From NCBI RefSeq assembly GCF_012163145.1, contig NZ_JAAVTX010000011.1:1-64000 (forward strand): 64,000 nt of DNA, written 5' to 3'. Of the stretch, positions 57,620 through 63,979 are shown in pieces; position 1 is the first letter of the stretch; each line of letters opens with the position of its first letter. The stretch comes from Falsiroseomonas frigidaquae. GTDB taxonomy: Bacteria; Pseudomonadota; Alphaproteobacteria; Acetobacterales; Acetobacteraceae. The notes beneath the pieces were generated by a model, which was not told where the DNA came from, made no database searches, and worked only from the letters and a program-made list of their open reading frames with translations. Made by a program: the position numbers and the translations under genes.

Positions 57620-57728
57620 GATGGATGTTTTACGGACCTAATCGAATGGGATGCGGGGAGGCGAACTAAGCGCCGCTTCATTCACGTAGCCTGGGACATC
57701 GGACCGAAGCCGGCGAGCATCTGAGCCT

Positions 57729-57760
57729 GCCGGTTGTCTCCGGCATCCTCTATCTCGCTT
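57729..57760 (+). other. Candidate oriT of the mobilizable element
   Basis: An inverted repeat GCCGG-TTGTCT-CCGGC (57729-57744) is directly followed by ATCCTCTATC, close to the YATCCTG nic core of IncP/VirD2-type relaxases. It lies about 50 bp before mobC, where oriT is normally found in MobC-relaxase units. The nic site is not verified. Confidence 0.45.
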
Positions 57761-57791
57761 GCTCTTGGTTCGGTTCCCACTGCGGGAATCG

Positions 57792-58169
57792 ATGGGCAAG
57801 CCAAGGAAGCCGAAGACCACACCGATCTCGATCCGGTTGACGGATGCAGAGCGCGACGAGTTGATCGGTCGCGCGGGCCAACGCAACTTAAGCGACTACA
57901 TCCGGGCGTGCCTCTTCGGCATGGCGGCCAAGGCGCGGAACGCGAAGGCCCCAGCGCCGGCCTCGCGCGAGCTCGCGCATATCCTGGCGCGCCTTGGAGC
58001 ATCAGACCTTGGCCCTAGCCTTCGCGAACTTGCTTACGCCGCGAAGATCGGGGCATTGCCGGTCACGCCGGAAGTCGAAGGCGCCATCAAGTCGAGCTGC
58101 GATGCCATCGTCGCGCTTCGCGCCGAGCTCATGCAGGCGGTGGGACTGAAGGAGGACCGGGTTCCATGA
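57792..58169 (+). CDS. mobC: MobC-like relaxosome accessory protein
   Basis: A 125-residue protein with a basic N-terminus and a ribbon-helix-helix pattern (ISIRLTDAERDELIGRAGQRNLSDYIRACL), as in MobC/NikA-type proteins that bind oriT and assist the relaxase. The ATG at 57792 is the best start; the frame opens earlier at 57759. The stop overlaps the relaxase ATG (ATGA at 58166-58169), the usual mobCA arrangement. Confidence 0.85.
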   Translation: MGKPRKPKTTPISIRLTDAERDELIGRAGQRNLSDYIRACLFGMAAKARNAKAPAPASRELAHILARLGASDLGPSLRELAYAAKIGALPVTPEVEGAIKSSCDAIVALRAELMQAVGLKEDRVP

Positions 58170-59440
58170 TCCTCAAGGCCAGCCAGCGTGCCGGCGGTAA
58201 GCAGCTCGCCGTGCACCTTCTTCGCGATGACGAAAACGACCATGTCGAACTGCACCAGATACGCGGGTTCGTGGCCGACGATCTGACGGGCGCGCTTCGG
58301 GAGGCCTATGCGGTCAGCCGCGGGACGAAGTGCACGCAATATCTCTTCTCGGTTAGCTTCAGTCCGCCCCAGGAGGAGAAGGTTAGCGTCGCGACATTCG
58401 AATCTGCGATCGATGAGCTTGAGCGCCGGGTGGGGCTATCCGGCCAACCGCGGGTGATCGTCTTCCATGAAAAGAACGGGCGTCGGCACGCGCACTGCGT
58501 TTGGTCGCGCATCCGCGCTGATGATCTTCGCGCGGTCAACATGGCACACTTCAAGCTGAAGCTGCGGGAGTTATCGCGTGAGCTCTATATCGAGAATGGC
58601 TGGAAAATGCCGCTCGGCCTAGTCAACAGCGAAGAGCGCAATCCACTCAATTTCACACGCGACGAATGGCAGCAAGCCAAACGCATTAGCCGCGATGCGG
58701 CAGGCATAAAGGCCGCGTTCCAGGATAGCTGGGCAACGTCCGATTCTCGGCAGGCCTTTATCCAAGCGCTGGAAGCCCGCGGCTATTACCTTGCGCAGGG
58801 CGACCGGCGCGGCTTCGTCGCGGTGGATTATCTCGGTGAGGTTTATTCCCTCTCCCGCTGGAGCGGCATACGGACCAAGGATCTTGCGAAGCGACTTGGC
58901 GACCCAGCCGCTTTGCCGGGCGTCGATGCGCTGAAAGCGCAACTCATGGAGAAGGTGGCCGATAAGCTCGCGTCCTTTGCCAGCGAGATCAAGGGCGAGT
59001 TCGAAAGCGCACGCCTCGGCCTCCAGGAGCAGAAGAAGCGTCTTGTCGCTTGGCAGCGGGATGAGCGCGCGATGCTACGAGACTTGCAGGCCGCAAGGGC
59101 CGTCGCCGAGGCGCGCACCCGCGCCGAGAGGTTTCGGTCAGGACTTAAGGGGCTTTGGGACCGTTTGACCGGCAGGCGCTTAAAGATCGCCGGTCAGAAC
59201 GAAGCGGATTATATCGCCTCTAAGCGCCGGGATGCGGAAGAACACCAAGCGCTGGTCGATCGCCAACTGGCGGAACGCCGGACGCTCCAACGGAAGATTG
59301 CCGAGCGACAGGTTCACCTGGATCGCGAGCTATCTGAACTGCACGGCAGACCACCTATAAATCGAGAGCTGTCTATAAACACTCATGATCGGTCCCCGGT
59401 GCAGCGATCGAGGCGCCGCAATCCCACTTTATCACCCTAA
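58166..59440 (+). CDS. Relaxase/mobilization nuclease (MobA/VirD2 family)
   Basis: A 424-residue relaxase. The metal-binding histidine motif is HEKNGRRHAHCVWSRI near residue 97. A tyrosine-containing N-terminal region (for example AYAVSRGTKCTQYLF near residue 50) could supply the nicking residue, but I do not identify the exact Tyr. The region after residue 260 is a long charged coiled coil (KKRLVAWQRDERAMLRDL). Relaxases nick oriT and pilot the DNA strand during conjugation. No type IV secretion genes are present, so the element would be mobilised by a helper. The C-terminus ends in basic residues. Confidence 0.92.
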   Translation: MILKASQRAGGKQLAVHLLRDDENDHVELHQIRGFVADDLTGALREAYAVSRGTKCTQYLFSVSFSPPQEEKVSVATFESAIDELERRVGLSGQPRVIVFHEKNGRRHAHCVWSRIRADDLRAVNMAHFKLKLRELSRELYIENGWKMPLGLVNSEERNPLNFTRDEWQQAKRISRDAAGIKAAFQDSWATSDSRQAFIQALEARGYYLAQGDRRGFVAVDYLGEVYSLSRWSGIRTKDLAKRLGDPAALPGVDALKAQLMEKVADKLASFASEIKGEFESARLGLQEQKKRLVAWQRDERAMLRDLQAARAVAEARTRAERFRSGLKGLWDRLTGRRLKIAGQNEADYIASKRRDAEEHQALVDRQLAERRTLQRKIAERQVHLDRELSELHGRPPINRELSINTHDRSPVQRSRRRNPTLSP

Positions 59441-59519
59441 TACTTTTTGGCGCTCAAGTATTAGGTGCGTTTCCTGGCTAAGCAACAGATTGGCAGCATT
59501 TCCGGGTTGCCTGAGAACT

Positions 59520-59903
59520 TTAGCGCCGAAAGCGATCTGTGCCAGCAAAGACCGACTGCCACATACGGGTTGGCTCCGCTGCTTCGGGGATGTTCGTAGT
59601 CATGTGCCAGAGCGTGATTATCACGTCGTGTCCGTCGTCGTTGACCATCTGTCCTACCCACGCGGTGAGTGCCGCAGTCGGCCAGTTCACTACGAAAGAG
59701 ATCAGATCGCCGTTCACATAACCTGTAAGCTGCCCTGTGATAGGTTGCCCTTCGCCGCTCACAGCACTTTCGTACGCGCCAGCAACAGTCCCGTTCGTGA
59801 CGGTTAGAGTAGCTCGAGACCCTAGCTGATTGCGCCAAACGCCAGAGAAATCAACAGGTAGCGCACTGGAACCAGCTTGCAGAAGGGCTTGCTCATGCTG
59901 CAT
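59520..59903 (-). CDS. Avidin/streptavidin-family biotin-binding protein
   Basis: A 127-residue protein that is avidin-like throughout. Counterparts of streptavidin's biotin-contact residues are visible: Asn and Ser in WRNQLGS (N23, S27), Tyr and Ser in AYESAV (Y43, S45), Trp in VVNW (W79), Thr and Trp in LTAWVGQ (T90, W92), Trp in ITLWHM (W108), Trp in MWQS (W120) and Asp in GTDRF (D128). S88 appears to be replaced by Ala. High-affinity biotin binding and tetramer or dimer formation are therefore likely. No signal peptide is seen from the start at 59903, which has GAGGT upstream; the frame opens to 59996 without one either. It is divergent from the EamA-type gene and close to two biotin-ligase-related genes, so it belongs to a biotin cassette. 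Confidence 0.88.
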   Translation of the reverse strand: MQHEQALLQAGSSALPVDFSGVWRNQLGSRATLTVTNGTVAGAYESAVSGEGQPITGQLTGYVNGDLISFVVNWPTAALTAWVGQMVNDDGHDVIITLWHMTTNIPEAAEPTRMWQSVFAGTDRFRR

Positions 59904-60202
59904 GGCGACCTCGATCTCGGCTCGATGCGAGCATAGGCGAGTCAATGATCGAAATGCAACGTGTGACAGAACAAGGCCCCCGGACTCGACGATCAAGCCG
60001 GTGTCCTACCTTATATGGTGCTGCGAGGCGTCGGCCTGAGGCATAGCGCCCGGCCGCCACATTCGAGATCTGCGCTTCCCGATGAGGTAACAGATTTGTC
60101 TGCTCATCTTCGTTGCCATCGCAAACTTATTCAGTCACAGTTAGCCCCACAGCCGGTTTCGAACCTTACTCGATCATTGTTTATCCTTTGGAGACAGTGG
60201 CA
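59904..60202. other. Divergent region between avidin-like and transporter genes
   Basis: About 300 bp less GC-rich than the chromosome on the left. It should hold promoters for both genes. No coding frame other than the extensions of the two genes is convincing. No obvious BirA-type operator (TTGTAAACC-type half sites) was recognised. Confidence 0.4.
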
Positions 60203-61174
60203 ATGCAGCATGGTCGACCTTACGGGAGCGATATTGCCATTGCTGCCGCATTCGGCGCACTAGCCGCGACCGGGTATGCCCTTCAGCACCCATTTTCAAA
60301 GCCTGCCGCGACGAGGATTGGCTCTTCATTTAGCGCCGGGCTATGGCTAGTGATTTTGACGGAACTTGTCTTGGCATCGGCTGCTGTTGCTCTATTAATC
60401 GCAAGCTCAAAAATCCGAGAGCAAGCGGCGTCAATTTTCGTCGGTAGAACTAATTTGACTGGGCTACTCCTAAATTGTTTCGTCGGCGCGGTCTCGCTAC
60501 TAACATATTTATACGCCATCTCGATTGCCGATCAAATTTTCCTCGCAGCGATCCTGAACTGCTTTCCGTTCTGGCATGCCCTGATCGGCAGTTGGTTTTT
60601 TTCGAAAGCCAAAATGAGGCTAGCAGAGTGGGGAGTATTTGTAGCAGCACTGACAACGATTATATTGATTTCGGCATCCGATTTTGAACGCGGGGGTATC
60701 TGGCAATTCTTTTTATTCTCCCTTACACCTATTGGATTCTCCCTCGGAGTTTTCATTCGGGCGTCCTATTGGGGCACACTTGGACCACTGCCGTTTCTCT
60801 GCGCAACGACGATCTTTAACGCGCCAATTTTCTTGACCGGCTGCATAATTGCCTTGGGGGCGTCGTTTAACTGGAATACATTCATGGGCATTCTAAATGA
60901 AGATCTAGTATTTTTCGGTATTGGAGCGCTATCTTCCGTTGGCGCTACATATTTTTTGCACCGAGGGCACTCGATTTCGCCGAAAGTTAGTTGGGTGGCC
61001 GGATTTATGCTTTTTCTGGTTCCAGGAATGACGGCATTCTTAAGCTACGCCACTATTCGACTTTTTAAGACTGATATTCCCTTTGAATTTAGATATGTTG
61101 TGCTTTCCGCACTAATGATGGTTTACCTGCTGACATATTACTCATACACTCAATGGACCGAATTAAAAAGATAA
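60203..61174 (+). CDS. EamA/DMT-type membrane transporter
   Basis: A 323-residue protein with about ten hydrophobic segments in two repeats of five, typical of drug/metabolite transporters. Repeat 1 starts near IAIAAAFGALAATGYAL and includes YLYAISIADQIFLAAILNCFPFWHALIG, the EamA signature. Repeat 2 follows ISASDFERGGIWQFFLFSLTPIG. Base composition is clearly AT-richer than the chromosomal genes to the left, with poorly GC-biased third positions, so it was acquired recently. DMT proteins export or import small metabolites. Placed between avidin and biotin-ligase genes, biotin or a biotin analogue is a plausible substrate, but this is inference. GGAGAC precedes the ATG at 60203; an earlier ATG at 60113 is less likely. 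Confidence 0.82.
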   Translation: MQHGRPYGSDIAIAAAFGALAATGYALQHPFSKPAATRIGSSFSAGLWLVILTELVLASAAVALLIASSKIREQAASIFVGRTNLTGLLLNCFVGAVSLLTYLYAISIADQIFLAAILNCFPFWHALIGSWFFSKAKMRLAEWGVFVAALTTIILISASDFERGGIWQFFLFSLTPIGFSLGVFIRASYWGTLGPLPFLCATTIFNAPIFLTGCIIALGASFNWNTFMGILNEDLVFFGIGALSSVGATYFLHRGHSISPKVSWVAGFMLFLVPGMTAFLSYATIRLFKTDIPFEFRYVVLSALMMVYLLTYYSYTQWTELKR

Positions 61175-61350
61175 CTGCTTGGCTTGCAATGCGATTCTTT
61201 GTCGCATCGAGGAACTCGAGCGTGTGGAACGCCAATCCTCACCCCGCCTCTGAAAGGCCAGTAGGCCATGGCGCGAAAAGCGAGCCTGTTGCGGGAGAAT
61301 CTCCCGCCGCTCTTATTGGAAGGTATCCACCGCCGATGCTTTAGCCGCAC

Positions 61351-62097
61351 TTAGGGCGCCTTCAGGATGACTTCGCCGGTGATGAGCCTCGATATAGAGC
61401 CATCGCTCTTCTTAAGGATAAGAGCACCATCAATGTCGATTCCCTCGTAAATTCCTTCCTCATAAAACGTCTTATTATGCCCTAGGCCAACAGTAACTCT
61501 TTCGCCAAGCCTGTGAGCGCACTGCAAATAGGCTAATCGGATGGCTGCAAATCCTTTTTGAACCCACAAATCTAGGAACGCGCAAAATCTTATGTTCAGC
61601 CGCTCTATGATGGCATCGCGGCTCGCTTGTGGAAATCCAAGTGAATGAAGCGCACCCGGCGGATACACCATCCCCGCCCCCTCAGGGTGATGCCTTACGT
61701 TGACGCCAGTTCCGACGACGATCCAGCCGGGAGTCCTATCTGAGTAAGCTCCAGCTTCAATGAGAGATCCGCCCACCTTTCTTTCTTGCAGTATAAGGTC
61801 GTTTGGCCATTTAAACGAAATACCTGAGTTTGCTCCAAGCGCGTCATCGATCGCCGCCTTTACCGCCAAGGCGTTTACGAAAGGGAGTTCGCCAACGCTC
61901 GGCCACGTTGGTTGGGGCCTGAGCAAAATTGACCAGAAGACATTGCCCTCTTCAGATATCCATTGACGATCGTGGCGGCCACGCCCCGCGGTCTGGCGGC
62001 GGGCCCAAACGACAGTAAGGTGACCACCCGCCTCACTCGTCAATCGCTTTAAGTCATCATTTGTGCTTCCGGTCACGTCCTTCTCAATTACCAGCAT
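61351..62097 (-). CDS. birA: Biotin-protein ligase without repressor domain
   Basis: A 248-residue monofunctional (class I) ligase. It has the biotinyl-AMP loop GRGRHDRQW near residue 39, KWPNDLI near 97, KVGGSLIEAG and VVGTGVNV. A small C-terminal SH3-like domain follows, ending EVILKAP. It makes biotinyl-5'-AMP and attaches biotin to carboxylase lysines. The N-terminal DNA-binding domain of BirA is absent. The ATG at 62097 has GGGAGG with ideal spacing; the in-frame ATG at 62121 is less likely. Composition is AT-rich compared with the chromosomal part, so this is probably not the host's housekeeping ligase. It lies downstream of the BPL_N gene on the same strand. Confidence 0.93.
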   Translation of the reverse strand: MLVIEKDVTGSTNDDLKRLTSEAGGHLTVVWARRQTAGRGRHDRQWISEEGNVFWSILLRPQPTWPSVGELPFVNALAVKAAIDDALGANSGISFKWPNDLILQERKVGGSLIEAGAYSDRTPGWIVVGTGVNVRHHPEGAGMVYPPGALHSLGFPQASRDAIIERLNIRFCAFLDLWVQKGFAAIRLAYLQCAHRLGERVTVGLGHNKTFYEEGIYEGIDIDGALILKKSDGSISRLITGEVILKAP

Positions 62098-62200
62098 CGA
62101 TTCCTCCCGGATAGGTTGCATTCAGCGCTTAGCTGCCGCGTTTCTTTTCGACGGACCTACGCGTGCGTTTACGGGCCACAGAATGAACGCGGACGTGGAT

Positions 62201-62935
62201 TCAAGGTAGCAAACTATCTACCAATTCCCGAAAAGGCTCTAGACTTAAGTTGTTCGAGCCGATGAGTGCGGCAATATCTTTAAAGTTATTCCCAACAACT
62301 TCGAATCTTATCAGTTCGATCGCCGACGCATCATACTCAACATGGGCCGAACTTAACAACCATTTGCCGCTGCCGTAGGTGCCACTAACGATGGCTGGAG
62401 AATTATCGTGAAGCTGGCTAAAGGTGGCGATCGTCTCAAAGACCGCCTGCGGCCTAGCGACGAATCGACACCCGCCCCAATAGAGAGCCCTCAACTTGCG
62501 CGAACCAAAATCTAGATCCACTATTCGCGCATCAGATCCATTATAGCTCTCGGCCTGTGAAAAGTCTTTGATAGGGCCTACAGCCTTGCCTGGGAAAAAT
62601 TCAAGCTCATTGCTCCGAACAATCTCGAACTCCGTGCCCCGCGCCCACTCTGTAGTCTCACACGCCATATATGCGCCAGCACATATCCCAAAATAGCTGC
62701 CTCCGCCACGTACATAATTTTTTATCGCGTCGTTTCCAGGTCCGGCCAACTTGGCCTCTTTATACCTGGATGCACCGCCTGGCATGAATAGGATAGTGAC
62801 GTCTCGATGGAGCACGCCGCCTATAACTTCGTTGGCATCAACAAAATCAACATTCTGCTTCCCAAGAAGCCTGCCGAGAGATGTGTATAGCGTTCCATTT
62901 GAGGACACGTTATCCTGATAAATAGCCACCTTCAC
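62201..62935 (-). CDS. Stand-alone BPL_N-type glutamine-amidotransferase-like protein
   Basis: A 244-residue protein matching the N-terminal domain of eukaryotic-type biotin-protein ligases (BPL_N, a class I glutamine-amidotransferase-like fold). The nucleophile elbow reads GSYFGICAGAYMA (C85), preceded by ILFMPGGASRY. Likely catalytic His and Glu occur in SSAHVEYD near residue 205. So a Cys-His-Glu triad is probably intact. In yeast this domain is fused to the ligase; here it is a separate gene 103 bp upstream of birA. It starts with GTG (62935) preceded by GGGGGGAGG. The reaction of the domain is not established in any system I know. AT-rich like its neighbours. Confidence 0.87.
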   Translation of the reverse strand: MKVAIYQDNVSSNGTLYTSLGRLLGKQNVDFVDANEVIGGVLHRDVTILFMPGGASRYKEAKLAGPGNDAIKNYVRGGGSYFGICAGAYMACETTEWARGTEFEIVRSNELEFFPGKAVGPIKDFSQAESYNGSDARIVDLDFGSRKLRALYWGGCRFVARPQAVFETIATFSQLHDNSPAIVSGTYGSGKWLLSSAHVEYDASAIELIRFEVVGNNFKDIAALIGSNNLSLEPFRELVDSLLP

Positions 62936-63043
62936 TTTTGCCTCCCCCCAGAATGACGCGTACTATAAGCCCTCGCCCCAATCTGCGCAGCAACGATGAT
63001 CGCCGCTGCGCAACGTTATGATCATGGGCAAAACGCAGGAATC

Positions 63044-63979
63044 TTAGGCCGCTCGCGAAACAGCTTGCACCTCCTTGGTAGCATTGCCTTGCAACGCGTG
63101 AAGGTAGTCTGCGGCCCGCTGCGCATGGCTCGCCGCTGAAAACACAAAACGCTTGTCGCCCTTCAGCACCTCCAGCCAAGAGGCGATGTAGGCGGCATGG
63201 TCCTCCCGTACCTCCGGCGCGATCCCAAGATCGGCGCCGAGGAAGGCGGCGCCGAGTTAGGCAACAAGCTCTTCCTTCGCATACCCTTGGTCACCCCATT
63301 TCACGCGGCCAAGATCGCGTGCCAGGCGCTTCTCATGCTTGGTCCAATGGGTCAGCTCGTGCGCCAGCGTTGCGGCATAGCTCTCGGTGTCTCGGAACGT
63401 CTCGAAGGGCGGCATCTGCACGAAGTCGGCGCCTTCCGCGTAGTAGGCACGGGTCCCGCCATGCCGAATATCGGCACCCGTCGCGGCGAAGAACACATCG
63501 GCCGCTTCGATGCGCTGGGCAGGCGTCAACACGAGGCCTTGCGCGCTGGCGTAGTACTGGGCGGGCAAGCCTTCGCACTGCTCGGCATTGAAGACGGTGT
63601 AACCTTTGAGGAAGGGTATTTCCCGCTCGGCCTCCGTGCCGTCGTCCTTGGTTTCGGTGCGGGTGATGGAGTTCGCATAGACCACGAGTTCGCCGGTCTC
63701 GCCCTTCCTGACATGGCCGCCGAGTTCGAGGGCCTGCTTGAAGGTCAGCCACAACGGGCAGGCAAAGCCCTTCGCAACCGATGCCGACCAGAGCATCACG
63801 ACATTGATGCCGCGATAGGGAATGCCGTTGTGGCGCAGCGGCCGCGTGATGCGCCCGGCGGCATGGTCTGCCGACCAAGGCTTCATCCAGGGGCGAACGC
63901 CGCGCTCCAGATCGGCGATGATCTTGTCGGTGATCCGGCTATAGACATCGGGCCGGGAGGATTGGTTAGTGCTTGCCAT
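63044..63979 (-). pseudogene. ArdC-like antirestriction gene interrupted by one in-frame stop
   Basis: The reading frame encodes an ArdC-type protein: an N-terminal ssDNA-binding domain (DVYSRITDKIIADLERGVRPWMKPW) and a metallopeptidase-like domain with HELTHWTKHEKRL. It stops at TAA 63257-63259 after EELVA, 240 residues in. Translation of the same frame beyond that stop continues as family-typical LGAAFLGADLG, then HAAYIASWLEVLKGDKR to a natural TAA at 63044-63046, giving 311 residues if read through. GAA to TAA is one base change. AAAGGAGA precedes the start. ArdC proteins protect entering DNA from restriction. The short product would lack the last conserved part and is likely inactive, unless the stop is read through or is a sequencing error. 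Confidence 0.85.

Follow-up and report, generated by a model that had tools for sequence, protein, structure and literature searches.

A four-gene module from the alphaproteobacterium Falsiroseomonas frigidaquae (assembly GCF_012163145.1, contig NZ_JAAVTX010000011.1) brings three biotin-related protein families together in one replaceable interval of a mobile element. The interval spans 3.8 kb and encodes an avidin, an integral membrane protein, a biotin ligase without a helix-turn-helix (HTH) domain and a stand-alone BPL_N protein; coordinates are collected in Table 1. The stretch of DNA analyzed, referred to below as the window, comprises positions 1–64000 of the 89,343-base contig, in a genome of 6.08 Mb. 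The reading favored here, with a probability of roughly 0.37, is that the four genes form a mobile module for biotin capture and charging, in which the avidin is intracellular and the ligase is a split version of the eukaryotic type. The three recognized families were already known; neither their combination, nor a seemingly cytoplasmic avidin next to a ligase, nor a split pair of class III-like type is described among the matches listed from the open-access literature.

The module is replaceable cargo, because a sister element with homology on both flanks carries an unrelated gene in the same interval. On one side the module is bounded by a pair of genes for a NikA-like protein and a MobA/VirD2-type relaxase, and on the other by an ArdC gene. 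The relaxase was matched in 10 of 147 relatives, the nearest of which (87% identity) lies in a genome of the same family (G078). The sister element in this genome (L163) encodes counterparts of the NikA-like protein (91% identity), the relaxase (87%), ArdC (91% over 240 aa) and a Fic protein (91%). DNA homology between the two elements covers positions 57648–59300 (83.5% identity) and 63102–65584 (85.7% identity). The sister counterpart of the interval in between measures about 3.5 kb and holds a single open reading frame (ORF) of 980 aa (L163:13273–16215), unrelated to the four genes; its product had no Pfam or PADLOC match at E ≤ 0.001. The swap agrees with the initial annotation, made from the sequence of the window, which had described a mobile biotin-related cassette in DNA richer in A and T than that to its left. 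Base composition bears out the latter point: the G+C content of the avidin, membrane protein, ligase and BPL_N genes is 0.565, 0.471, 0.527 and 0.497, respectively, compared with 0.711 for positions 1–57000. That three biotin families should share 3.4 kb, when two of these families are rare, would not be expected by chance. Avidins were found in 6 of 385 genomes sampled from the class and BPL_N in 20 (19 over the cut-off); the F. frigidaquae genome is the only one in both sets.

Module proteins and host biotin metabolism

The avidin belongs to the same Pfam family as the bacterial avidins streptavidin and rhizavidin, and its profile score (Table 1) exceeds the curated cut-off of 24 bits. It was compared with streptavidin, the sequence of which was confirmed against PDB 5n7x, at 13 sites. 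Ten of the 11 usually counted contact residues are kept (N23, S27, Y43, S45, W79, T90, W92, W108, W120 and D128), and the eleventh, S88, is replaced by A. The two further sites are changed (A86 to T and L110 to M).

The position of the start codon bears on the location of the avidin. A purine-rich stretch resembling a ribosome-binding site lies upstream of ATG 59903 (avidin), ATG 60203 (membrane protein), ATG 62097 (ligase, where it reads GGGAGG) and GTG 62935 (BPL_N). The avidin and ligase starts given in the initial annotation were therefore probably too far upstream, since such stretches precede later ATGs. The start at ATG 59903 is further supported by the resulting N-terminus, MQHEQALLQA, which resembles the MQQEKALLRA of an avidin in another genome (G130, L059). 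From this ATG, the N-terminal hydropathy peak is 0.83 and no signal-like stretch is present; from an alternative TTG at 59996, the N-terminus would be moderately hydrophobic, with a peak of 1.6. Among six other avidins from genomes or plasmids, L062, L063 and L066 have signal-like N-termini with peaks of 1.83–2.67, and L059, L060 and L061 have lower peaks that are not signal-like, their starts being uncertain. If the likely ATG holds, the avidin apparently stays inside the cell, without a secretion signal. The low peak weakens the earlier suggestion of a secreted biotin-starvation weapon, to which the TTG start would still give room. According to a 2021 survey (PMC8033661), signal peptides are present in about half of the bacterial avidins, and avidin genes are not clearly linked to any particular pathway, whereas the avidin of the module lies beside a biotin ligase and BPL_N. 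A single plasmid relative of the avidin was found, in Rhizobium gallicum (38% identity), and no BPL_N or biotin ligase was annotated among its listed neighbors. This gene (L066:5881–6357, NZ_CP092345.1) lies on a conjugative plasmid, encodes a signal-like N-terminus and has no gene entry in the PLSDB table.

The ligase scored well beyond the TIGR00121 cut-off of 83.1 bits; PF03099 and PF02237 were also over cut-off, and no HTH row was obtained. Its GRGR and KWPND motifs are intact, and it is 32% identical to the chromosomal ligase of the host. Distant relatives occur on 55 plasmid records; for the two with the lowest E-values among the matches listed (H19 and H24), the annotated neighbors include no biotin gene. 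The adjacent BPL_N protein (PF09825 cut-off, 24.2 bits) is predicted to adopt the fold of class I glutamine amidotransferases, with a triad of Cys, His and Glu. Across 55 sequences (the window's and those from 54 of the 80 BPL_N loci described below), C85 and H198 are invariant and E200 is present in at least 90%. The eukaryotic class III ligase combines a BPL_N-type amidotransferase domain of this kind, triad included, with the ligase catalytic and C-terminal domains in one fused protein, whereas the module has two separate, adjacent genes. In one report, the N-terminal domain of the yeast class III enzyme is described as keeping the triad, with a role that is not known (PMC12582158), and another paper, which names BPL_N together with biotin, concerns the transfer of BPL_N genes to a placozoan host (PMC7750005). 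Among viral contigs, BPL_N had one short match (31% over 71 residues; L147).

The membrane protein is strongly hydrophobic, with hydropathy peaks that fit a polytopic membrane protein. Of the four neighboring genes named in the initial annotation between the relaxase and ArdC, the avidin, HTH-less ligase and BPL_N assignments stand on profile matches over cut-off, and the label of an EamA-type transporter was dropped. No EamA (DMT) profile was matched, and the sole Pfam row at E ≤ 10 was DUF2063 (E = 0.17). NCBIfam gave no row at 0.01 and PDB only chance-level rows (E = 0.79 and 1.3), and a single-sequence structure model was too poor to judge a ten-helix DMT fold (predicted local distance difference test score, 43.6). 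The annotated Escherichia coli biotin transporter BioP (YigM) is likewise a hydrophobic multi-helix protein, but neither it nor RarD has significant sequence similarity to the module protein. No credible relative was found in samples of 385 and 339 genomes, and viral contigs gave no match. Two weak genome matches, 72 and 83 residues long, fall within short open frames at loci with thiolase and fadB-like genes identified by eye; they were set aside as chance, because one is antisense to a fadB-like gene and the other was not reproduced by tblastn.

Searches of the host genome covered BioB, BioY and biotin ligase. BioB (TIGR00433) exceeded its cut-off in 32 of the 100 genomes searched and in none of the 16 from the genus, where F. 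frigidaquae itself reached 32.9 bits. BioY was matched at 118.6 bits, on a different contig from the module, and a chromosomal biotin ligase adjoins genes that by eye resemble nuoN and coaX. Given the absence of BioB over cut-off in the genus and the presence of BioY, the host appears to be biotin-dependent and to possess an uptake protein and a ligase apart from the module. BioB was also below cut-off in another avidin carrier in this sample (G123), which means little because 68 of the 100 genomes share this property.

Neighborhoods of BPL_N and recurrence of the gene set

The best 80 of 221 confirmed BPL_N relatives from a genome scan were examined in loci of 3.2–20.7 kb. A bioY gene lies within 6 kb of the stand-alone BPL_N gene in 17 of these loci, and all 17 products are BioY by Pfam. 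In 11 loci the two genes overlap or are separated by at most 132 bp. A rough estimate puts the share of genomes of such size in which a randomly chosen gene would adjoin bioY at about 0.1%. By title, the 17 loci comprise five from Pasteurellaceae, nine from Chlamydiae, two from Brevinema and one from a gammaproteobacterial metagenome-assembled genome (MAG). Because they cluster in few groups, the cases are not all independent. BPL_N stands directly beside bioY, in divergent or overlapping arrangement, in L088, L096, L108, L111 and L123 (Pasteurellaceae), L113, L118, L128 and L135 (Chlamydiae) and L127 and L130 (Brevinema). On these counts, the genomic surroundings of stand-alone BPL_N point to biotin uptake in several groups, though not in the class to which the window belongs. 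The bioY-linked proteins are of the same family as that of the module; no ligase, avidin or module-type membrane protein was detected in their loci.

A separate feature of the 80 loci is a tandem second BPL_N-like gene, seen in 17, mostly Micavibrio and other alphaproteobacterial MAGs (L070–L073, L075–L082, L084, L085, L089, L092 and L121). This additional copy has the lower score and could encode a diverged partner subunit.

The four-gene set was not found again. The initial annotation had proposed looking for co-occurrence of the families and had named its absence from all other genomes as a refuting result; in every sample searched the outcome went against the annotation, and recurrence is not shown. 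Twenty regions from the class sample account for 22 of its 24 listed BPL_N places, the exceptions being the place in the window itself and the sub-cut-off G302. No further module member was found at E ≤ 0.01 in these regions or in all five other avidin regions. A distant avidin could be overlooked, because the single-sequence search missed two of the five known avidins (L062 and L063). BPL_N was not found in the 15 other genomes of the genus, and a plasmid search at E = 1e-5 was negative for BPL_N, for the membrane protein and for the DNA of the whole module. The statement in the initial annotation that no system of this composition has been described agrees with the open-access literature among the matches listed, subscription papers being outside this scope.

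Proposed working of the module and rival explanations

The four products could act jointly. The membrane protein may import biotin or one of its derivatives, which the intracellular avidin would hold against loss. BPL_N may process the ligand, perhaps cleaving biocytin or another biotin amide, or may be the partner domain of the ligase, and the module ligase would attach biotin to carboxylases. BPL_N and the ligase would then constitute a two-gene version of the eukaryotic class III enzyme, and the module as a whole would help a biotin-dependent host such as F. frigidaquae appears to be. In favor of this proposal are the presence of three biotin families in one replaceable module and the retention of the avidin contacts, the ligase motifs and the BPL_N active-site residues. 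Capture and charging is favored because a genus without BioB over cut-off keeps BioY, and because BPL_N is linked to bioY in other phyla; among the uses suggested in the initial annotation, capture or storage is thus preferred, tempered by the alphaproteobacterial loci that lack the link.

Several observations weigh on the other side. Avidins bind biotin almost irreversibly and release it slowly, so that an intracellular avidin could starve the cell and may be a sink, not a store; this is the chief difficulty. Translation from the TTG start could make the avidin an exported protein. BioY and a chromosomal ligase are already present in the host, no relative of the membrane protein is known, and the module is located among defense genes. 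The four-gene combination is seen once: no ligase, avidin or other module member was detected in the 80 BPL_N loci (E ≤ 0.001). Finally, the window is alphaproteobacterial, and the bioY link is missing both from the approximately 34 of the 80 loci with alphaproteobacterial titles and from all 20 BPL_N regions sampled in the class.

The main rival, rather unlikely on present evidence, is resistance to biotin-like antimetabolites or ligase inhibitors, with the avidin sequestering the compound, the second ligase serving as an insensitive bypass, the membrane protein exporting it and BPL_N hydrolyzing it. Cargo slots of mobile elements often carry resistance. A diverged second enzyme is the usual shape of target bypass, which the module ligase, at 32% identity to the chromosomal one, would match; the predicted amidotransferase-type fold of BPL_N, with its full triad, would suit hydrolysis. 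This reading ranks as the main rival because streptavidin binds acidomycin and protects its producer, a self-resistance reported in a study of the Streptomyces "streptavidin BGC nexus" (BGC, biosynthetic gene cluster; PMC13336041). That nexus, like the module, has an avidin in a biotin-related region; the module differs in having no antimetabolite cluster among the scanned proteins, in its apparently unsecreted avidin and in its position in a mobile cargo slot of an alphaproteobacterium. The 17 scanned proteins to the right of the module include no biosynthetic cluster, BPL_N accompanies an uptake gene in other phyla and, according to abstracts that include that of the same study (PMC13336041), acidomycin and stravidins act on biotin synthesis, which the host appears to lack.

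It is fairly improbable, too, that the interval holds two unrelated cargo pieces without joint function, the avidin with the membrane protein and the BPL_N-ligase pair. This explanation is retained because the set was seen only once. The module contains at least two transcription units, with divergent and convergent gene pairs and the uneven G+C contents given above; elsewhere avidins and BPL_N were found apart (in five avidin regions and in 20 plus 80 BPL_N loci), and the bioY link is absent from the alphaproteobacterial loci examined. Against it, each half has to do with biotin, and the single interval that encloses them is lacking in its entirety from the sister element.

The surroundings suggest a further function, in defense or competition. 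The contig between 64.4 and 79 kb, to the right of the module, encodes Fic, HerA with SIR2, type I restriction subunits and a GmrSD-type nuclease, and one relative of the relaxase also has HerA-SIR2 close by. A defense-linked sink is retained because of these surroundings: the avidin would withdraw biotin on a trigger such as infection or loss of the element, and the ligase and BPL_N would protect or release the cell. The seemingly cytoplasmic location of the avidin is compatible with such a role, but biotin withdrawal acts slowly, through fatty-acid synthesis, and fits poorly with stopping a phage. None of the four proteins matched PADLOC at E ≤ 0.001, the gene in the sister slot had no PADLOC or Pfam match and no sensor domain is visible; we consider this sink decidedly improbable. 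In its favor, the avidin survey (PMC8033661) lists two defense-pathway Gene Ontology terms among avidin-associated genes. Very doubtful, although of wider consequence, is the idea that the intracellular avidin is a regulated biotin vault or sink in a defense-island cargo slot, partnered by BPL_N and the ligase as a two-gene class III-like enzyme. If it were true, BPL_N would catalyze a reaction on biotin derivatives, and the otherwise unexplained N-terminal domain of the eukaryotic ligases would be accounted for as well.

The module sets two questions side by side, and beside a ligase: the role of bacterial avidins in the cell and that of the amidotransferase-like domain of eukaryotic biotin ligases. 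The BPL_N-bioY neighborhood gives this eukaryotic-ligase domain a biotin-uptake context in several bacterial groups, and both questions could become open to experiment with bacterial proteins that are small and easy to clone.

Features of the interval and the surrounding element

Table 1. Coordinates of the module, its genes and the flanking backbone genes in the window
Feature	Positions	Strand	Evidence
Replaceable cargo module with four genes	59301–63101	none	DNA homology to sister element stops at both edges
Avidin-family protein, 127 aa from likely ATG	59520–59903	-	PF01382, 71.3 bits
Divergent intergenic region between avidin and membrane-protein genes	59904–60202	none	Sequence reading
Integral membrane protein, 323 aa, putative transporter	60203–61174	+	Hydropathy peaks
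Class I-type biotin protein ligase (no HTH), 248 aa	61351–62097	-	TIGR00121, 131.2 bits; PF03099; PF02237
Stand-alone BPL_N (class I amidotransferase-like), 244 aa	62201–62935	-	PF09825, 108.9 bits; upstream of and co-directional with ligase gene
NikA-like mobilization accessory protein (element backbone)	57759–58169	+	PF21983, 28.9 bits (cut-off 27)
MobA/VirD2-type relaxase (element backbone)	58166–59440	+	PF03432, 54.4 bits
ArdC-type gene (element backbone)	63257–63979	-	PF08401, 143 bits; PF18818, 106.5 bits

Regulatory signals were sought in the window. The BioR-type operator motif gave seven matches with one or two mismatches, compared with 3.9 expected, and no perfect match, so candidate operators were rejected. 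Promoter and terminator scans remained close to the level of shuffled sequence (4 versus 3.3 and 6 versus 4.5, respectively), and promoter-like matches in the divergent intergenic region were not above shuffles. Repeats flanking the module were limited to short, chance-like matches.

Beyond the defense genes, the contig encodes a TraG-type coupling protein and, near its end, a large serine recombinase. We infer that the whole region is one integrated, mobilizable element, the right end of which was not found within the contig. Within positions 63102–63979, the ArdC frame seems to be C-terminally shortened: homology to the longer ORF of the sister element runs past the stop at 63257 to position 63102.

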